Below are positions 35,486 through 62,595 of a DNA stretch of 64,000 nucleotides, in pieces (the stretch's first letter is position 1; each line of letters begins with the position of its first letter). The translations under genes and the position numbers were made by a program. This DNA is from Marinobacter salicampi. Lineage in GTDB: Bacteria > Pseudomonadota > Gammaproteobacteria > Pseudomonadales > Oleiphilaceae. The notes beneath the pieces are model-generated. The model searched no databases and had not been told where the DNA came from. It saw nothing but the letters and a program-made list of their open reading frames with translations. The stretch covers positions 62,001-126,000 of the forward strand of contig NZ_JAAMPF010000008.1 in the NCBI RefSeq assembly GCF_011074795.1, given 5' to 3'.

Positions 35486-35872
35486 CTAGCTTTTAAGCTT
35501 GTAACGCCCGGGGCCCAGGAACACAAGCGCCAGTGCGATAAACAGGAAGAAACCCTGCAGTTCCAGCGACCAGCCGCCGGAGCCGGCCAGGCTCATCAAC
35601 TGGTGGCCGTGTGCCAGAGCAATGGCGACCAGCATGTTGAATACGATCAGTAGGGCGCCGATCCGGGTGTGGTAGCCCAGGATAACCATGAGGGGCGCAA
35701 TCAGCTCGCCAATGAAAACGCCGTAAGCGAAAAAGCCGGGAATACCATGGGCCGATAACATGGCTTCTATGCCACTGACGCCGTTAAACAGTTTGGCCAC
35801 GCCGTGGAACAGCATCAGGCCGCCCAGGGTCAGCCTGATGATCAGCTTTCCAAGATCTGTATTCTCTAACAA
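35486..35872 (-). CDS. DoxX family membrane protein
   Basis: 128 residues, four TM helices (about 10-27, 48-66, 70-92 and 104-122), with the family patterns RLTLGGLMLFHGVAKL and GELIAPLMVILGYHTRIGAL. DoxX-like proteins are linked to redox or thiol stress in some bacteria, but this one has no assigned role. The only start covering TM1 is TTG at 35872, with AGGAAA 8 nt before it. Same strand as the globin gene upstream (117-bp gap). Confidence 0.85.
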   Translation of the reverse strand: MLENTDLGKLIIRLTLGGLMLFHGVAKLFNGVSGIEAMLSAHGIPGFFAYGVFIGELIAPLMVILGYHTRIGALLIVFNMLVAIALAHGHQLMSLAGSGGWSLELQGFFLFIALALVFLGPGRYKLKS

Positions 35873-35989: not shown

Positions 35990-36439
35990 CTAGGGTGCAA
36001 CAATGTCCCCATGCATGGGGGCGAGCTGTGCCAGCAACTGATTCTGGGCTGCGGTGGAGATGCCGTTGCGCTCCAGAGCCAGTACCAGGTTCTCGACCAG
36101 GGCATTGAACTGGGTTTCGGTAATGGCCATGGCCTGGTGGGATTCTGCCATGGAACGGCCCGTGTAACGGCAGGGCCCACCGGCAAGCCCACAGATCTGG
36201 TCACTCAGCCTGGAATGAAAGCGGTTCACGTCCAGGCCCCGGAACTGGAAAGCAATTCGGGTGTCATCGACGATCAGGTACATAAGGTCTTCCACAATGG
36301 CTTCTATACCTGCCCGCTGGCCCAGAGCGTCGTATAGATTAGCATCCCGTTCTGCCCCCGCTTCACCGGTGACCGGAGTCTGACAGGCCGTCAGCAGGAC
36401 AGCCAGAAAACAGCCGGAAATAAGCCGTATGAACGTCAC
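35990..36439 (-). CDS. lipoprotein group I truncated hemoglobin
   Basis: 149 residues. A type II signal peptide ends in LLTAC (lipidated Cys near 19), then a 2-on-2 globin domain of about 115 residues (NLYDALGQRAGIEAIVEDLM; GGPCRYTGRSMAESHQAM with the proximal His in ESHQAM; ALVENLVLALERNGI). GTG start with GGAG 8 nt upstream. Most truncated globins are cytoplasmic; here the signal places it on the envelope, where it might bind O2 or NO. It follows the DUF3034 gene by 17 bp. Confidence 0.88.
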   Translation of the reverse strand: MTFIRLISGCFLAVLLTACQTPVTGEAGAERDANLYDALGQRAGIEAIVEDLMYLIVDDTRIAFQFRGLDVNRFHSRLSDQICGLAGGPCRYTGRSMAESHQAMAITETQFNALVENLVLALERNGISTAAQNQLLAQLAPMHGDIVAP

Positions 36440-36456
36440 CAGAGATACTCCATCAG

Positions 36457-37320
36457 CTAGAAACTGCCCTGTAAGGAAAGATACACGCCGCGCTGGTCGG
36501 GTAGCCCCGCGATCCCGCCGAGATCAACAAAAGCGGCGGTCACGGCGAGTCGACGATCGGGCACCCAGGCCACAAACAGATCATGCCAGTCATCTTCTTC
36601 AGCAAAGCTGAGGTTGTCTGGTTTCTGGCGATACTCCACCCCGGCCAGCCAGTGCCGGTTCATAAACAGGGCCACACTGGCCTCCAGCATGAGTTCGTGG
36701 GCCCGGCTTCGGTCACCCCCGAAACCCAGCAGGCCCCCCTGGTTAGCCCGGGTACCACGGGCGGTCAGGTTAACCAGCAGGTTGCGGCTGGCGAGCGCTG
36801 CGAAAAACAGCTTGCTGCCACTGAGGTAGATGTCGGTGCCACTCTCATCCCGCGCCCCTACCGCGGATGGTACGGTGAAATGGCGGTTGCGTTTATGCTG
36901 AAGCCCCAGGGACCACTGGCCATAGGTGCCATAAAGGACATCTCCGGCCAGCCGGGCCTTGGCACCGAAAATATCCTGTGCCAGTTCATCCTGTCCCAGG
37001 GTGGCGCCCAGAGTACCCAGGTCCAGAGTCTGGCGGCCTGCGCTCAATTCCAGGCGGTTACGCCAGTTAACGGTGACGCCGGCAAATCCCAGGGTGAAGT
37101 CGTCCACTTCTGCGCGACTCAGCGCCAGGGTTCCGCCCCACTCCTCGTCGCTGGCATAGCCGCTGAGCAGTGCCCAGGGCACAAGACCGCCGCCGGCGGT
37201 GCCCTCAATGGTCGTTACGCCCCCCGTGGCCCACAGGCGGCTGCCGGGCGCACCTTGCACATGAGTTGCGAGCGCCAGCACCAGTATCATTGCCATAGGC
37301 AGATCCCGTGCCAGCGTCAT
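36457..37320 (-). CDS. DUF3034 family envelope protein
   Basis: 287 residues with a Sec signal (MILVLALATHVQGA, cleavage near 23-24). The mature part is beta-rich, with alternating aromatic and polar strands and a C-terminal aromatic residue (VYLSLQGSF), which suggests an outer-membrane barrel. GGVTTIEGTAGGGLVPWALLS near the N-terminus is the family hallmark as I know it. No function is established. It overlaps the EAL gene by 4 bp (ATGA), implying coupled translation. Confidence 0.8.
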   Translation of the reverse strand: MTLARDLPMAMILVLALATHVQGAPGSRLWATGGVTTIEGTAGGGLVPWALLSGYASDEEWGGTLALSRAEVDDFTLGFAGVTVNWRNRLELSAGRQTLDLGTLGATLGQDELAQDIFGAKARLAGDVLYGTYGQWSLGLQHKRNRHFTVPSAVGARDESGTDIYLSGSKLFFAALASRNLLVNLTARGTRANQGGLLGFGGDRSRAHELMLEASVALFMNRHWLAGVEYRQKPDNLSFAEEDDWHDLFVAWVPDRRLAVTAAFVDLGGIAGLPDQRGVYLSLQGSF

Positions 37321-39698
37321 GTACCACCACCTTCGGGCTCAGTTTCCGGCGCCAGTTCCCCGGCCCGGAGACAAAATTCGCCGGCCCAGTCGGAGAGCAG
37401 TTCCGGCTTCATGGGCCGGCCCAGATAGAAGCCCTGGGCCATATCACATCCCCACTGTTGCAGGAGATGCCAGCTCACCGGATCTTCGATACCCTCGGCC
37501 ACCACACGCAGACCCAGGCGGTGGGCCATATCGATGGTGGACTGCACAATGAGCTGGTCCTGGAGCTCAGTAGCAAGCTTGAGCACGAAGGATTTGTCGA
37601 TCTTGAGCTCATCAACGGGCAGGGACCGCAGTTGAGCCAGGGACGAGTAGCCGGTGCCAAAATCATCAATGGAAATCCTGAAACCCAGGCCCCGGAGTTT
37701 TTCCAGGGTCTGAATAGCGAGGCCGGCATCCAACATCACGGCACTTTCTGTTACCTCGAAGGTGATGCGCTCCCGGTGGTCCTGCCAGCTGGCGAAGGTG
37801 GAGATCACCATGTCAGCCAGAGAGCGATTGGTCAGGTCCAGAGCCGAAAGGTTAATGGCTACCCCAATATCCAGCCCCGCCTTGCGCCAGACACACGCAT
37901 CATCGGCGATGCAGCGGAGGATAAAGCCGGTCAACTGGTGGATCTGGCCTGAGCGCTCGGCCAGGAGGATGAATTCGTCTGGATTGACAAAGCCCAGCTC
38001 AGGATGATGCCAGCGCACCAGAGCCTCTACCTGATGAAGCTCTACAGTCTGGAGGGTGATCTTGGGCTGGTAATGCATGAACAGATCGCCATTGGCCATG
38101 GCTGGATGCAGGTCTCTGATCAGGCGTAATTCGCGCAAATGGCTCTCATCGCCACCGGGCCGATAAAAAGCAATCTGGTGGTCGGCTTGGGGGGCGATTT
38201 CCATGGTCAGGTTGAGTCGCCGGCGGACTTCATCCGGTGTCGCGCCCTGTTCCGGCAGGCTGATGACCGCCACGTGTATCTGTAGATGTATCGGGGTGTT
38301 GTAGACCACCACACAATCTTCGGTATGGGCTTTCAGTCGCATGATCAGGTGTTCCAGCTGATCGCGGCTATGGTTGGGAACCAGTGCCATGAACTCGTTG
38401 CCGCCTGTTCGCCCGAAGTGACATTGGGGGGGTAGCTGTCCGCGCAGGCGCAGCCCGGTGGCGATAATAACCTGGTCCCCGAAGGCGAACCCGAGGGTAT
38501 CATTGACAGCCTTGAAGTCCGCCAGCGCAAACGCAAGGGCGAAAACCGGCGTTTGCTGTCTGAGGAACTTGGCCAGTTGCGCATCAATGGCCTTGCGGTT
38601 CTGCAGGCCTGTCAGCTCGTCATGCAGGGCTTTGTGTTCAAGGCGGTGCTCACGCTCCCTTATCCGGAGCAGCATTTCCATAAGCGCCCTTTTCAACACG
38701 CCAAGCTCGCCGCCGGGGCTGACTTTTGGCGGAGTTGCCGGCCGTCCTTCGCCAATGGCACTGGCGAAATTGGCCAGCTCCAGTACCGGTCGCCCGAATG
38801 CCCGGGCCGTGGCCAGCACCAGAACCCCCGCCACCCCAAGCGCTGCCAATACGATAATGCCGATCTCCTTGGCCAGGGTGTAGTAGTTATCCAGGGCGGC
38901 GTCGCGACTGCTAAGCATCACAATATGAATGGCTTGGCTGGGGTCCCGGTTTACCGTCATCGACTGGCTGAAGTAAGGCCCGCTTTCAAGCAATGTCCGG
39001 GTCGAGCCGCCGCTGGTCGATCGGGCGAGGGTATCCATCAATGCGGCATCAAACGAAGCCGGCGGCAGACTGCTGGCCAGAATGTTGACCCGGTTTCCGT
39101 TCTTGTACTGGAACACCACGTCGCTGGCCGTGAGGTCGCTGATTGCCCCGGCTAGCGCATCGTCAAGCAGAAAGCCGGCGATCAGCCAGGCCTTCAGTCC
39201 GGCGCCTTGGACCGGTACCACAATCAGCTGGTACGCTCGCCCCTGCCAGAGTTGAATATCGTCGGCGTAGCCGTCGTTCCGGGCTTCTGCAAGCAGCTCC
39301 TGGAAAGGCGTCGGGGTGCCGGAGCTCATAAGATCCGGGCCAGCCACGACAAGGCCCTGGTTATTGGCCAGCACGGCCATGTCTGCCTTGGCCCGGGCGC
39401 TGTGGTTGTCCAGGGCACTGGTCATGGTGGGCAGATCACCGCTGGCGACAGCTGAGCGGAAACCAAAGTCCTCCACCAGCACCTTCAGGCGCGACGCCAG
39501 CAATTCGGTCCGGCGCGCCAGAACCTCTCTGGCGACGCCATCGGCAATGTTGAGTTGCTCCCGGGCCCTGGATTTTTCCGCTTCGAACAGATTCAGCAGC
39601 AGCAGGCCAGCGATACCGATGACGGTAATAAGCACGATGGCGAGCATGGTGATCAGCAGGCGGGCACGAAAACCCAGCAATATCCGGGGATACGGCAT
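37317..39698 (-). CDS. membrane GGDEF/EAL protein, probable c-di-GMP phosphodiesterase
   Basis: 793 residues. TM1 at about 14-34, a periplasmic sensor of about 245 residues (Cache-like; no further match), TM2 near 285-303, HAMP-like linker, GGDEF (about 365-525) and EAL (about 540-785). The GGDEF is degenerate: TGGNEF replaces GGDEF and ALADFK replaces the metal-binding DLDxFK, so cyclase activity is unlikely. The EAL set looks complete (VEALVRW, INLSA, FEVTES, DDFGTGYSS, KIDKSF, AEGIE). The ATG shares a base with the upstream stop (TGATG); GGAG is 5 nt before it. A GTG one codon earlier is possible. Confidence 0.92.
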   Translation of the reverse strand: MPYPRILLGFRARLLITMLAIVLITVIGIAGLLLLNLFEAEKSRAREQLNIADGVAREVLARRTELLASRLKVLVEDFGFRSAVASGDLPTMTSALDNHSARAKADMAVLANNQGLVVAGPDLMSSGTPTPFQELLAEARNDGYADDIQLWQGRAYQLIVVPVQGAGLKAWLIAGFLLDDALAGAISDLTASDVVFQYKNGNRVNILASSLPPASFDAALMDTLARSTSGGSTRTLLESGPYFSQSMTVNRDPSQAIHIVMLSSRDAALDNYYTLAKEIGIIVLAALGVAGVLVLATARAFGRPVLELANFASAIGEGRPATPPKVSPGGELGVLKRALMEMLLRIREREHRLEHKALHDELTGLQNRKAIDAQLAKFLRQQTPVFALAFALADFKAVNDTLGFAFGDQVIIATGLRLRGQLPPQCHFGRTGGNEFMALVPNHSRDQLEHLIMRLKAHTEDCVVVYNTPIHLQIHVAVISLPEQGATPDEVRRRLNLTMEIAPQADHQIAFYRPGGDESHLRELRLIRDLHPAMANGDLFMHYQPKITLQTVELHQVEALVRWHHPELGFVNPDEFILLAERSGQIHQLTGFILRCIADDACVWRKAGLDIGVAINLSALDLTNRSLADMVISTFASWQDHRERITFEVTESAVMLDAGLAIQTLEKLRGLGFRISIDDFGTGYSSLAQLRSLPVDELKIDKSFVLKLATELQDQLIVQSTIDMAHRLGLRVVAEGIEDPVSWHLLQQWGCDMAQGFYLGRPMKPELLSDWAGEFCLRAGELAPETEPEGGGT

Positions 39699-40390
39699 CA
39701 CAGCTCCCGGAAGCGTTTTTGCAGGCCCTCAAGGCCGGAAATCCCTGGTTTTTTTGGAACAAGGTCCAGGACCACCCTGTGTCGAACAGGCCAGGGACCG
39801 CTCAGGACCCAGGGCTCACTGGCAGTATTGTCTGCAAGCCGCGAATGCCAGACCTTTACCTGGAGTTCGCCGGCAGAGCTCATGAGTTCTGCCGGAACCT
39901 CAAGGCGGGCAATGCCGGCGGCACCAGATCTGGCCACATGAGCGCTGTCTGTCACGACAATGAAAGCCTGCATCTGGTCGTGGATGTTGCAGCCGAGCTC
40001 AACCACTCCCGGTTTGTCGAACAGAACAGGGGCCTCCGGTTGGTCGGCATAGAGCTCGATATTAAAGGGCTTTGGCGTCGAAAACGAATACACATGGTGC
40101 TGGGTATTGTCGTTATTGGGAAAGGCCACTTCGGCGCCCTGGGGAATCACTGTCAACGCAGGATCAAACGCCCGGTTCATTTGGGACACCGTAAAGAGCC
40201 CGGGTCCGGTTGAAGCTTTGGTGTCGACTTCCCCCTGGCGGGCTCGGGAATTTACTTCAACCACGACCACAACATCAGGCAGGGGGGCGCCGGTTTCGTC
40301 TCCGAACCTAAGCTCGACAGTGCCAGCGAGACTGGGCGGGACCCAGGCAAGCATCAATCCAGACACAAAACTGCGGATGCTAAGTGACAT
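39698..40390 (-). CDS. periplasmic cupredoxin-like protein (methylamine utilisation-type)
   Basis: 230 residues from ATG 40390 (AGAG just upstream; a GTG 30 bp earlier is also open). Signal peptide to about residue 22 (MLAWVPPSLA). An N-terminal Ig/CNA-like segment is followed by a plastocyanin-type domain. Candidate type-1 copper ligands are His in NNDNTQHHVYSF and C, H, M in GCNIHDQM. Such proteins are often annotated 'methylamine utilization protein', but no mau genes are here. It is coupled to the EAL gene by the overlapping TGATG. Confidence 0.8.
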   Translation of the reverse strand: MSLSIRSFVSGLMLAWVPPSLAGTVELRFGDETGAPLPDVVVVVEVNSRARQGEVDTKASTGPGLFTVSQMNRAFDPALTVIPQGAEVAFPNNDNTQHHVYSFSTPKPFNIELYADQPEAPVLFDKPGVVELGCNIHDQMQAFIVVTDSAHVARSGAAGIARLEVPAELMSSAGELQVKVWHSRLADNTASEPWVLSGPWPVRHRVVLDLVPKKPGISGLEGLQKRFREL

Positions 40391-40433
40391 GCATGCTCTC
40401 TTACGTACTCGCTGCGGCACGTCTTCCTTAACT

Positions 40434-41126
40434 TCAGGTCAGGTCCTTCGGTCCGAGATTGAACTGTATGCGGTTGCGCAGCAACAGGTTTTCCCAATAT
40501 TCCCGCATCCAGTCCCAGGCTGCATGCTTAACCTGTTCTACGAAGGGATCCAGATTCAGTTCATAGTAATCGGGGGTGCCCGCTATCTGGAGTACAGTAA
40601 TGGTGATCGATTGGTCTAGCTCGTTGGCGAAGGGCTCGCCTATGAGCTGGTGAGCCAGCAGGTTCGCCTGGGTGGCTTCGATGTCGACCAGCTTGCCGCT
40701 TCGGATGGAATGATTGTTGTCGTTCATCTCTTCCATCAGCCGGTGACACAGGTAAGCCCGTATGAGCAGGCCGTCCAGGCCGTCGTAACGCGCCAGCAGA
40801 ACGGAAGGCTGGGTGAAATACCGGGTAGCGGCCTGAATAAAGGGTGCGAACAGCTCCAGAATATCTGCCTCGCGCGCGCAGGCCTCCACGCACTCAATGA
40901 GTCGCGGGGCCATTTCGATGTATTCCACGGCAAACTGGAACAGGCAGGTCGCGGGCTGGCTGCAGTCCACTTCGATAGTGGCAGGAAGCCCGTCTGCTTT
41001 TGCCTGAAGCTGTCGCAGAAATGTTCCCGACCTCGCCTCACGACGACGAGCCTGGTCGATGATGTCCAAAACTGCCGCTGGTGTCATGTCAGGAGATGCC
41101 GGTGTGTGCACTGAAAAGGGTCGCAA
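40434..41126 (-). CDS. hypothetical protein, unknown function
   Basis: 230 residues, soluble, without signal or TM. Mostly helical and acidic, with notable stretches HRLMEEMNDNNHSIRSGKL and AAWDWMREYWENLLLRNRIQF. I do not recognise a family. The start at TTG 41126 has GGAGG only 4 nt upstream; ATG 41087 lacks a ribosome site. It ends 43 bp before the cupredoxin gene on the same strand, so it may be the first gene of that operon. Confidence 0.6.
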   Translation of the reverse strand: MRPFSVHTPASPDMTPAAVLDIIDQARRREARSGTFLRQLQAKADGLPATIEVDCSQPATCLFQFAVEYIEMAPRLIECVEACAREADILELFAPFIQAATRYFTQPSVLLARYDGLDGLLIRAYLCHRLMEEMNDNNHSIRSGKLVDIEATQANLLAHQLIGEPFANELDQSITITVLQIAGTPDYYELNLDPFVEQVKHAAWDWMREYWENLLLRNRIQFNLGPKDLT

Positions 41127-42576: not shown

Positions 42577-42920
42577 GGCTTAGGTGGCCTTTTTGATTGA
42601 TTGAAAAGCGGCGTTATTACATTTAGGTCTAAGAGGCTTTGTTGTAAGTCCCTTAAATTTTACCCAATATTTTGAGACTTTCGCGGTCATCTGGCTATAC
42701 TGACGCGGACTATCCGTGAGTAAAGACTTCCGGGCAGGTTTTCAGAGTGTGTGCGAGCACCTGTTAATCCCGTTTCGAGAAGCCCAACTTCCTCCAGCAG
42801 GAAGTGTCACGCAGAATTTTTCGGGCAGTAACCCACGACGCGAGTTCGCCAAGGAACGTCTGGTTAGCCGGACATCCGGTTTACTGTCACAACAAGAACA
42901 ACACTCTGTGGAGACACGGT
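42577..42920. other. regulatory region between the MATE gene and coxB
   Basis: 344 bp without a likely gene. It holds a good plus-strand promoter (42672-42701), so the coxB leader is about 210 nt. The leader contains a perfect 7-bp hairpin ACTTCCT / AGGAAGT (42787-42805, loop CCAGC), with a T5 run about 12 nt beyond. It also contains CCGGA-CA-TCCGG near 42870. Frames in this stretch continuous with coxB do not resemble CoxB. I saw no clear promoter for the MATE gene. Confidence 0.5.
42672..42701 (+). promoter_or_regulatory. sigma-70 promoter of the cox operon
   Basis: TTGAGA (42672-42677, 5/6) and TATACT (42696-42701, 5/6) with an 18-bp spacer. Transcription would start near 42708. Confidence 0.65.
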
Positions 42921-44045
42921 ATGCACGTGCACGCTAAGCGGGCAAGCGTTTTTATGGGCGCATGTCTGGCATCTAACCAGGCCCTTGGGGACTGGACGCT
43001 CAATATGGCACCGGGAGTAACCGGTTCCAGCAATGAAATATTCGATCTCCACATGACGATTCTCTGGATCTGTGTGGTGATTGGCATAGCCGTGTTCGCG
43101 GTCATGTTCTGGTCGATCTTCGCCCACCGCAAGTCCAAGGGCTACAAACCCGCCCATTTCCATGAAAACACTGTTGTGGAAGTGCTCTGGACCATCATTC
43201 CTTTCGTCATTCTCGTCGTTATGGCCATACCCGCCACCGCCACGCTAGTGGATATGTACGACTCCAGTGAGTCGGATATCGACATCAAGGTCACCGGTTA
43301 CCAGTGGAAGTGGAAATACGACTACCTCAATGAGGAATTCGGCTATTTTTCCAACATGAAGACCTCCCAGGACGAGATCTATAACCGGATCCAGAAAAAC
43401 GAGCATTACCTTCTGGATGTGGATAACCCGATGGTAATTCCAGTTGGCAAGAAAGTTCGCTTCCTGTTGACTGCCAACGACGTGATTCACTCCTGGTGGG
43501 TACCTGCATTTGGTGTCAAAAAGGATGCCATCCCGGGGTTCATTAACGAAACCTGGACGCGGGTTGATGAGCCGGGCATCTATCGTGGTCAGTGCACCGA
43601 ACTGTGCGGACGCAACCATGCCTACATGCCGGTAGTTGTCAAGGCGGTGCCCGAGGAAGAGTACAACGAGTGGGTTGCAGAGCAGCAGGCGTCCGCGGAA
43701 CGGGAGCGTGAACTGACCGAGAAAGACTGGTCCCTGGAAGAGCTGATGGAGCGTGGCGAACAGGCTTATCAGACCGCCTGCGCCGCCTGTCATCAGGCCG
43801 ATGGTAGTGGCATGCCACCGGCGTTCCCGGCACTCAAGGGTAGCCAGATGGTGCTTGAAGATGTACAGGCTCACCTGGATGTCGTGGTCAACGGTGTACC
43901 GGGTTCTGCCATGCAGGCGTTTGGCGACCAGCTGAGCGAAGTTGATCTTGCCGCTGTCATTACCTACGAGCGTAACGCCTGGGGTAACGATACTGGAGAA
44001 GTGGTAACGCCGAAGCAGGTGTTCGACTACAAAAACGAAGAATGA
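42921..44045 (+). CDS. coxB: cytochrome c oxidase subunit II with fused cytochrome c domain
   Basis: Receives electrons from cytochrome c. 374 residues from ATG 42921 (GGAG 8 nt upstream; the frame is open further back but not CoxB-like). Signal to about residue 22, two TM helices (about 45-65 and 85-105). The CuA site has C225, C229, H233 and M236 in GQCTELCGRNHAYM. After it comes a c-type cytochrome domain, CAACH at 287-291, with the Met ligand probably in the GSAMQAF region. The extra heme domain is seen in many marine gammaproteobacteria. Confidence 0.97.
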   Translation: MHVHAKRASVFMGACLASNQALGDWTLNMAPGVTGSSNEIFDLHMTILWICVVIGIAVFAVMFWSIFAHRKSKGYKPAHFHENTVVEVLWTIIPFVILVVMAIPATATLVDMYDSSESDIDIKVTGYQWKWKYDYLNEEFGYFSNMKTSQDEIYNRIQKNEHYLLDVDNPMVIPVGKKVRFLLTANDVIHSWWVPAFGVKKDAIPGFINETWTRVDEPGIYRGQCTELCGRNHAYMPVVVKAVPEEEYNEWVAEQQASAERERELTEKDWSLEELMERGEQAYQTACAACHQADGSGMPPAFPALKGSQMVLEDVQAHLDVVVNGVPGSAMQAFGDQLSEVDLAAVITYERNAWGNDTGEVVTPKQVFDYKNEE

Positions 44046-61135: not shown

Positions 61136-62595
61136 GAATAAATCTCCGGCCCGCCGGAAACCGCGAATCTAGCGCCATCGATACCAGAGGCGTTCAGACT
61201 GCGAAAGGGGTGACAGATGCGCAGGCGCAGGTCAGGACGTCGCTCAGCGAAGCGTAGCCACTGTCCCAGCTGGTGATCCGGGGGCGGCTCCGCCAGACTG
61301 TTATGCAGCGGTACAATGGCGATCAAGCTGTCGTTCGGCCAGCATTCGCGGGCTTCTTCCAGGAAATCCGATAATTCCCCGGTGGGCGGTTCCCAGGAAC
61401 GCGTGGCCAGCAGAACATTACGACGGTCACCGTCAAGATAGCCCCGGACCTCTTCAAGGACCCGTTGGTCCTCCTGCAGTGAGTTGGCCCCGCCGGCGTT
61501 GACTGTCAGGCTATTTTTGCCATCCAGAAGGTCGGCTTCGTCAGGAACCGTTGCCCCCGCCCATCGCACCAGTACCCGGCTTGAAGGCACCTCGGCAACC
61601 GCCAGTCCGGTTGACAGATCAGGTTGATCAGCACTGTCGGCAGGCCCCGTTCCGGTCTCCAGTGCTGGCGTTTCCATCCGGTACTGCAGCGCTATGCGGC
61701 CAGGGTGGCTGGCAAGCAGACGTCGCACCCGCAGCCGCAGGTGGCTGACGGTAAGCAGCAGCAGCAGCACCCGCGGAAAAACGATGTACACCAGCCAGCT
61801 CATGGCTACAAACGGCCACCAGTCACCCCAGCGGGTGGGTGCCAAGGTTGCTGCAGATTCGTCGAGTCGGTAAAAACGGGACTCGCTGACCAGCTCGGGT
61901 GAGGGCACGGCCGCAGGCCAGAGTTGTTGCCAGGGTGAAGCCACAGCAGCTACCAGAGAGTGAAATGATCCCGGCGCGGTGTCCAGGGTAGTGCTCCAGC
62001 CGAACGCAAGGTCCTGGACCACAATCAGGAACAGCAGGGTGACGAGCCCGAAGAGCCCGAATACGAGTCCGCCCAGATGTGCCGCCCGGGCTGCAAGCTG
62101 TGGCTGCAACTGCTCCAGAATCGTGGAGCCGGACTCGTCTGCGGGTCCCTGGCCCAGGCGCCGCTGCAGTGTCTTTACGAGGCCAGACCAGGGACGCCAG
62201 CCGAGAAATGACTGTGCGGTCGTGAATATCGCAAGCAACAACTGAAGAAAAATAAACGCCAAAATGACCGTAACGTTGATCTGCTGGCTGCCGTCATAAT
62301 AGAGCAGCCCCAGCATGGCAAGCATGCCCAGCATTGCTCCCAGTCCTGCAAAGACGAGGGCTATCCGGCGCCAGGGTTTGAGGCGGGGGTCCCGATCTGG
62401 TACTTCCCGACCGCGGCTGTGACTGAGCCGGGCCAGGTAATCCAGCCAGTGTTCCGCGTCTGGGTTCTGTTTATCCGCTTCACAGGCCAGCGCAAACCGG
62501 CGGTCACGCCTGTGTAGAAATGTCGCCGGCTGGGCCCGGTCGCGACGGACCTGGTCGTCAAAATCCAGCAACAGCGTCAAGGGTGCTTTGGCCAT
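61132..62595 (-). CDS. DUF2868 membrane protein
   Basis: 487 residues from MAKAPLTLLLDFDDQVRRD at 62595; a longer frame upstream is not credible. An acidic soluble N-terminus is followed by TM helices near 83-103, 110-130, 185-207 and 275-295. The cytoplasmic C-terminal region (about 330-487) carries RVLVRWAG and AIVPLHNSLAEPPPDHQLGQW. DUF2868 proteins commonly pair with a DUF3482 GTPase, as here (coupled by ATGA). Role unknown. Confidence 0.83.
   Translation of the reverse strand: MAKAPLTLLLDFDDQVRRDRAQPATFLHRRDRRFALACEADKQNPDAEHWLDYLARLSHSRGREVPDRDPRLKPWRRIALVFAGLGAMLGMLAMLGLLYYDGSQQINVTVILAFIFLQLLLAIFTTAQSFLGWRPWSGLVKTLQRRLGQGPADESGSTILEQLQPQLAARAAHLGGLVFGLFGLVTLLFLIVVQDLAFGWSTTLDTAPGSFHSLVAAVASPWQQLWPAAVPSPELVSESRFYRLDESAATLAPTRWGDWWPFVAMSWLVYIVFPRVLLLLLTVSHLRLRVRRLLASHPGRIALQYRMETPALETGTGPADSADQPDLSTGLAVAEVPSSRVLVRWAGATVPDEADLLDGKNSLTVNAGGANSLQEDQRVLEEVRGYLDGDRRNVLLATRSWEPPTGELSDFLEEARECWPNDSLIAIVPLHNSLAEPPPDHQLGQWLRFAERRPDLRLRICHPFRSLNASGIDGARFAVSGGPEIYS

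Follow-up and report, generated by a model that had tools for sequence, protein, structure and literature searches.

In a 64,000-nucleotide stretch of the Marinobacter salicampi genome (NZ_JAAMPF010000008.1, positions 62,001 to 126,000; hereafter the window, within which all coordinates are numbered), four consecutive minus-strand genes encode, in this order, a cupredoxin (CUP), a membrane GGDEF-EAL protein, a protein of the DUF3034 family and a lipoprotein globin. It is proposed, with a probability of roughly 0.57, that this cassette specifies a module for signalling across the envelope, with a periplasmic type-1 copper protein as the dedicated partner of a dCache-type inner-membrane receptor. 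The output of that receptor in the window probably lowers cyclic di-GMP (c-di-GMP). Comparative genomics shows that the CUP family is paired with one sensor family whose outputs are swapped from locus to locus. The original prediction for this DNA had described four minus-strand genes joined by two stop/start overlaps and a short gap, and comparison with the sequence and its open reading frames (ORFs) showed this to be correct to the base: the TGATG overlap between the CUP and sensor genes lies at 39696-39700, the ATGA overlap between the sensor and DUF3034 genes at 37317-37320, and the 17-bp gap between the DUF3034 and globin genes at 36440-36456.

The pairing was assessed from the neighbourhoods of the 73 strong CUP matches outside the genus. 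Weaker rows (E 2.8e-22 or worse; 43 of 66 in the class search and 8 of 66 in the phylum search), many of which were short cupredoxins, were left out of this tally, as were the window row of the class search and the four own-genus and three class-shared rows of the phylum search; loci L075-L079 are described here and are not among the 73. At E ≤ 1e-10 the CUP profile gave matches, not all of them full-length members, in 52 of the 321 genomes sampled across the class and in 60 of 398 sampled across the phylum. A sensor-family gene was present in 62 of the 73 CUP loci (five on weak evidence), and in 55 it lay directly downstream of CUP, on the same strand and within 100 bp. A barrel-like outer-membrane gene, belonging to one of four families, was found in 57 loci, in 35 of which it was DUF3034 and in 22 a member of another family, and a globin was found in 34, every time together with DUF3034. 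The reverse search with the sensor region identified 20 places in 19 of the 321 genomes, 16 of which had CUP adjacent or within 0.9 kb; the remainder were L203-L205, without CUP, and L207, at a contig start. Thus, the side-by-side placement of the first three genes or more, which had been named as the mark of a functional system, is conserved far beyond close relatives, and the opposite outcome, neighbours that are not conserved, did not occur.

The sensor gene occupies 37317-39701 on the minus strand, with an ATG start at 39698, and encodes a 794-amino-acid membrane protein composed of a periplasmic dCache_3-like domain, a degenerate GGDEF domain and an intact EAL domain. In a Pfam search the EAL domain was detected at E 6.6e-65, the GGDEF domain at 3e-21 and dCache_3 (PF14827) at 1.6e-4, the last with 21.8 bits, which is below the cut-off of 25.7; other sensors exceeded this cut-off (L065 with 41.6, L076 with 26.2 and L077 with 36.8 bits). 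Nine EAL positions (E, N, E, E, D, D, K, E, Q), which we take to be the catalytic set of this domain, were identical in 48 of 48 aligned rows, the window included, in an alignment made without L030 and L037, which have an internal stop, and L035, whose frame is broken. The GGDEF domain of the window reads RTGGNEF (GGNEF), so that the GG[DE]EF signature is absent; judged by eye against the canonical motif, the metal-site Asp is replaced. A canonical GGDEF was kept in 17 of the 48 rows by alignment and in 14 by a position-limited pattern. Since the EAL residues are intact in all rows while the GGDEF motif is usually lost, hydrolysis would be the conserved activity, and the sequence of the degenerate GGDEF suggests that the window protein is most likely a phosphodiesterase only. 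A bifunctional cyclase and phosphodiesterase is disfavoured for the same reason, and the degenerate GGDEF domain is perhaps retained as a regulatory domain.

Outside the genus, the sensors of the 62 CUP loci carry GGDEF-EAL outputs in 48 cases (one frameshifted), Ser/Thr kinase outputs in six, class III nucleotide cyclase outputs in five and histidine kinase outputs in three, and a further cyclase output was found in L077, outside the 73. The GGDEF-EAL labels come from local profiles built on our own alignment, with a Pfam check in the window, L065 and L076 only, and the kinase, cyclase and histidine kinase outputs were assigned by Pfam. The periplasmic part alone was recognisable in 50 of 50 EAL ORFs and in all six cyclases; that of the plain histidine kinase belongs to the same family (E 3.5e-20), and three of the six Ser/Thr kinases matched more weakly (E 1.7e-8, 1.2e-5 and 9.1e-4). 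Other GGDEF/EAL ORFs from the same loci served as a control, and none of these 15 matched the periplasmic part at E < 1e-3. Additionally, the window's own genome (4.35 Mb) contains 56 matches to the GGDEF/EAL protein, and each of the 55 others begins no earlier than residue 293, past the periplasmic part. On a tree built from 81 cupredoxins, at least three gains or losses are required to explain the cyclase label even when well-supported branches alone are considered, and the six kinase loci form one group with weak support in the Shimodaira-Hasegawa-like approximate likelihood ratio test (SH-aLRT; 98/32). The c-di-GMP output of the original prediction is the best reading for the window, and elsewhere this is one of several outputs found on the partners of the CUP family.

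Within and around Marinobacter the cassette behaves as one block. All 15 named loci found through the DUF3034 protein contain the four genes in identical order; twelve of them are titled Marinobacter, and the others are a Halomonadaceae metagenome-assembled genome, Vreelandella utahensis and Halovibrio salipaludis, at whose loci none of the genes flanking the cassette in the window was found. In a survey of 120 genomes of the genus, CUP and DUF3034 were each present in 67, and the corresponding sets of genomes, compared from lists copied by hand, were identical. Among eight cassette-free genomes examined, a MATE gene and the conserved 230-amino-acid gene that flanks the window cassette stood side by side in all eight, and a DoxX-family gene lay 65-131 bp from the 230-amino-acid match in seven, which represents an empty site between the same flanks. 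The identical presence sets, together with these empty sites, indicate that the cassette genes occur together or not at all. Damaged copies were also encountered: in L030 the cupredoxin ORF is short and the EAL gene contains a stop, L037 has a stop, and the EAL frame of L035 is broken. As a separate observation, three decaying Marinobacter copies, L208 (genome G738), L209 (G004) and L210 (G794), have a truncated cupredoxin or DUF3034, with only the N-terminal part of the sensor and a DUF3034 fragment left in L210, which suggests loss in progress.

The CUP gene (39698-40420, minus strand, GTG start) encodes a protein with a type-1 copper domain and a signal peptide; an in-frame ATG at 40390 is a likelier start than the GTG. 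Signal peptides, here and in the other cassette proteins, and the globin lipobox were judged by eye. In GTG-start numbering, the type-1 ligands are H108, C144, H147 and M150, in a plastocyanin-like order, and this H/C/H/M set was identical in 103 of 103 aligned CUP rows (78 loci plus 25 rows of alignment A1, a few rows being the same gene). The window protein gave no Pfam match at E 0.01 and no NCBIfam match, and a PDB sequence search at E 0.01 returned copper nitrite reductase only. Its AlphaFold2 model (predicted local distance difference test score, pLDDT, 80.9) has a cupredoxin fold, with 4hcf as the best structural match (Z 11.9, 83 residues, root mean square deviation, rmsd, 1.7), followed by plastocyanins and NirK; the region at about residues 63-148 of the model is the one that matches plastocyanins, a Bacillus cupredoxin and NirK. 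In the model, extra beta strands flank the copper domain on its N- and C-terminal sides and may form a second small domain; the CUP of L069 gave a CarboxypepD_reg match below the cut-off of that family's model. With both the modelled fold and the ligand set in agreement, CUP is predicted to be a type-1 (blue copper) cupredoxin. It resembles plastocyanin, pseudoazurin, amicyanin and the cupredoxin domain of NirK in fold and ligands, but differs from them in its additional terminal strands, in that no Pfam or NCBIfam model matches the window protein, and in that the neighbour it most regularly has is a sensor, not a redox enzyme.

The DUF3034 gene (36457-37320, minus strand) encodes a member of its family (PF11231; E 1.7e-102, 342.8 bits against a cut-off of 25), and the beta-rich character attributed to it at the outset can be given a more precise form, since it was modelled as a 12-stranded antiparallel barrel with moderate confidence (pLDDT 66.5; predicted template modelling score, pTM, 0.69). 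It is thus a predicted 12-stranded outer-membrane barrel, whose model matched FapF (Z 18.5, rmsd 3.1, 215 aligned residues) and KdgM (Z 17.8, rmsd 2.2, 170 aligned) best. The predicted fold is that of FapF, KdgM/NanC and other 12-stranded outer-membrane channels, but identity to FapF, KdgM and NanC is only 8 to 12%. Autotransporter barrels trailed FapF and KdgM by only about one to two Z units, so that the barrel match implies no particular cargo. The likeness to FapF is one of fold, and no amyloid (fap) gene was noticed by eye in the part of the window read. A PDB sequence search at E 1 returned no relative of DUF3034 among solved structures, and a PHROGs search returned nothing for DUF3034 or for the 230-amino-acid gene. 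One of the stretches most strongly conserved in the family is a Gly-rich segment that follows the signal peptide; the modelled barrel strands do not include it, and it might serve as a plug or a docking site.

The proteins found in place of DUF3034 comprise a family of about 410 amino acids (15 loci), a family of about 300 amino acids (six loci) and a Porin_5-like protein in L200. Porin_4 was detected in five of 13 members of the 410-residue family scanned, the rest matching more weakly, and the barrel nature of the 300-residue family is suggested by a signal peptide, an aromatic C terminus and its neighbours. DUF3034 itself was present in 16 of the 321 class-sampled genomes and in none of 14 control genomes. 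Of the 15 such genomes other than that of the window, nine had a cupredoxin in the stretch read and L066 had a globin at the contig end, and L070-L074 (the last cut by a contig end) had neither cupredoxin nor globin in the stretch read. The DUF3034 proteins of L070-L073, with no cupredoxin nearby, are divergent, and G296, one of the genomes of this group, carries a cupredoxin and an EAL gene on another contig (L206).

The globin gene (35990-36439, minus strand, GTG start) encodes a protein with the lipobox LLTAC, and a lipobox-like pattern was seen in 32 of 51 globin rows. It was matched by the bacterial globin family PF01152 at E 1.6e-12 and by group-1 structures at E values down to 7.8e-19, and its proximal histidine, H101, is invariant in 51 of 51 rows; family match and proximal histidine together class it, by sequence, as a group-1 truncated globin. 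In the distal pocket, the B10 column contained L, I, V or M in 50 rows and N in one, and the E11 column L, I or F in all 51. These columns, placed with the help of the alignment to group-1 structures, presumably correspond to Tyr B10 and Gln E11 of HbN, and because they are apolar instead of Tyr/Gln, an NO (nitric oxide) dioxygenase of the HbN type is disfavoured. The cassette globin therefore shares sequence family and proximal histidine with the HbN-type group-1 globins, but differs from HbN in being exported, in its apolar B10 and E11 positions and in two conserved cysteines. These cysteines, Cys83 and Cys90, are invariant in 51 of 51 exported cassette globins, and a disulfide near the distal helix is possible.

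Co-variation between CUP and its neighbours was examined through pairwise distances. Over 47 loci, CUP distances correlated (Spearman) with those of the periplasmic part of the sensor at 0.55, of the GGDEF domain at 0.38 and of the EAL domain at 0.30; the partial correlation with the periplasmic part, given EAL, was 0.50, against a permutation maximum of 0.22 in 300. Such co-variation is consistent with contact among the envelope parts and is not proof of it. We infer that CUP contacts the sensor, that the signal is copper, redox state, O2 or NO, and that barrel and globin have roles in its path. How CUP docks on the receptor would change with its own copper or redox state, or with a ligand that it receives, and the receptor would in turn set the cytoplasmic output, in the window c-di-GMP hydrolysis through the intact EAL domain. 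The DUF3034 barrel might admit the stimulus into the periplasm or anchor the complex, and the lipoprotein globin might bind a gas or heme-reactive ligand or tune the redox state of CUP. As the original prediction had it, the window is best read as encoding an envelope sensor that sets c-di-GMP. A more ambitious extension, put forward as a tentative possibility, is that the cassette represents a widespread, hitherto undescribed receptor class made of an outer-membrane barrel, a copper-protein messenger and a dCache receptor with interchangeable outputs, in which the signal would be relayed inwards through the redox or copper state of CUP, with gas input by the globin in the DUF3034 branch and CUP as a redox-gated ligand, not an electron carrier.

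Several results weigh against the signalling module. The periplasmic part was not recognisable by sequence in five non-EAL sensors, L149, L150, L151, L201 and L202 (three Ser/Thr kinases at E 0.07-0.17 and two hybrid histidine kinases, one at E 0.23 and one with no hit), whose family link comes from weaker whole-region matches and gene order. Three GGDEF-EAL sensor genes, L203-L205, have no CUP beside them, and for genomes G208 and G349 the class profile search listed no cupredoxin at E ≤ 1e-10. Conversely, at 11 of the 73 CUP loci the stretch read contains no sensor (L182 is cut by a contig end), and eight of these (L069, L160, L168, L176, L180, L182, L184 and L189) nevertheless have a barrel-like gene; L069, L075 and L168 combine CUP, DUF3034 and globin with no sensor. 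Barrel and globin may therefore belong to CUP rather than to signalling. In 31 full cassettes the partial correlation of CUP with the globin (0.49) was at least as high as that with the sensor (0.37), those with DUF3034 and GGDEF being 0.34 and 0.08. Finally, motifs for FNR/Anr, NsrR-like, CueR-like, sigma-54 and DNR-like sites were compared with shuffles in the 300 bp upstream of the 73 CUP genes, and no known regulator site was clearly enriched: FNR/Anr, sigma-54 and DNR-like sites occurred at about the shuffled level or below it, CueR-like sites in 35 of 73 regions against a shuffled mean of 44.2 in what is a loose test, and NsrR-like sites twice against 0.3, too few to use.

The main rival to the signalling module, judged unlikely on balance, is an envelope redox or transport pathway in which CUP, globin and barrel would perform electron transfer, NO or O2 detoxification or substrate uptake, with a co-regulated sensor that reads its own ligand; the genes would be neighbours only to ensure joint production of the pathway and the lifestyle switch that matches it. 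Type-1 copper sites usually serve electron transfer, and this pathway would accommodate both the sensor-less loci with barrel or, as in L075, DUF3034 and globin, and the tracking of CUP by the globin; by-eye neighbours such as a glutathione-reductase-like protein in L187, a thiol-peroxidase-like protein in L160 and a cytochrome-c-like protein in L079 point the same way. However, the sensor is the most constant neighbour of CUP (62 of 73 loci, against 57 for the barrel and 34 for the globin), no single redox enzyme was seen by eye to recur among same-strand neighbours in loci without DUF3034, and over the 47 loci the co-variation of CUP is stronger with the periplasmic part of the sensor than with its cytoplasmic parts. 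Acquisition of copper or a copper chelate, in which the barrel would admit the metal, CUP would store copper and the sensor would report its loading, is less probable still. It would fit the ligands invariant in 103 rows, the barrel-like protein as usual companion and the presence of the copper transporter PcoB among the DUF3034 barrel matches, but PcoB (Z 11.8, rank 41) stands far below FapF and KdgM, so that the barrel match is not specific; CueR-like sites are not enriched upstream, and inspection by eye of the listed neighbours revealed neither a copper ATPase nor a copper chaperone, no search having been aimed at such genes. As for a chance or house-keeping gene order devoid of joint function, the 56 GGDEF/EAL matches in the genome make such genes common neighbours, but at that density (56 per 4.35 Mb) about one adjacency would be expected in 73 loci by our estimate, against 55 seen. 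The order is also kept across orders and classes, with identical presence in 67 of 120 genomes, and a chance operon is regarded as ruled out by this conservation together with absence as a block.

Further observations concern the neighbourhoods of the cassette. In L176, L180, L184 and L189, CUP is followed directly by the barrel-like protein of about 410 amino acids, and the stretch read contains no sensor; these loci perhaps represent a form that lacks a sensor or acts in trans. In L154 (4765-7200) and L162 (8293-10689), a second GGDEF-EAL protein of the same sensor family lies directly upstream of CUP, so that two receptors may share one cupredoxin. In the window, the upstream flank is the conserved 230-amino-acid gene (40434-41126, minus strand), and the downstream flank is the DoxX-family gene (35486-35872, minus strand). 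The former is retained in Marinobacter with and without the cassette and is therefore a flank and not a member; membership of this gene or of MATE was rejected because both are present in all eight cassette-free genomes, and likewise because neither was matched beside the cassette in L037, L039 and L041. The 230-amino-acid gene ends only 13 bp ahead of the CUP GTG, so that the transcript may begin further upstream and this gene is perhaps on it. Outside the cassette block, a gene at 42804-44045, named by eye, encodes a protein that resembles cytochrome c oxidase subunit II and whose C terminus is of the cytochrome c type; its start lies about 2.4 kb upstream of the cassette, on the opposite strand, and a similar gene start was seen in L208-L210.

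Most membrane GGDEF-EAL proteins have no known signal, and the cassette offers a whole GGDEF-EAL subfamily with a conserved, purifiable periplasmic partner. Since the copper site of CUP should be visible spectroscopically, the signal is directly testable. No description of the four-gene set, or of the similar pairs of copper protein and sensor in other bacteria, was found in open-licence PubMed Central papers, as judged from titles and the beginnings of abstracts of the papers listed and, for PMC3770913, PMC12548924 and PMC4255298, from passages of the text; DUF3034 occurs as a term in two papers, whose passages do not concern the function of the family. With no described function found for either family, the module represents a first functional hypothesis for DUF3034 and for this cupredoxin family, and it suggests that copper proteins are able to serve as ligands in trans-envelope signalling, the outputs being exchanged during evolution.

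Among known systems, the closest arrangements are NspS-MbaA, LuxP-LuxQ and TorT-TorS, in which, as here, a periplasmic protein is encoded beside a receptor with a GGDEF-EAL or kinase output; this accessory protein would carry the signal to the receptor. The cassette differs from these pairs in that the accessory protein is a type-1 cupredoxin and not a solute-binding protein, in that one cupredoxin family is associated with several outputs, and in that a barrel-like protein, and often a globin, are encoded alongside. In YfiB-YfiR-YfiN, too, one set of genes encodes components of the outer membrane, the periplasm and the inner membrane, and the output is a c-di-GMP enzyme; however, YfiN makes c-di-GMP, whereas the cassette output is predicted to hydrolyse it, and neither a copper protein nor a barrel is represented by YfiR and YfiB.

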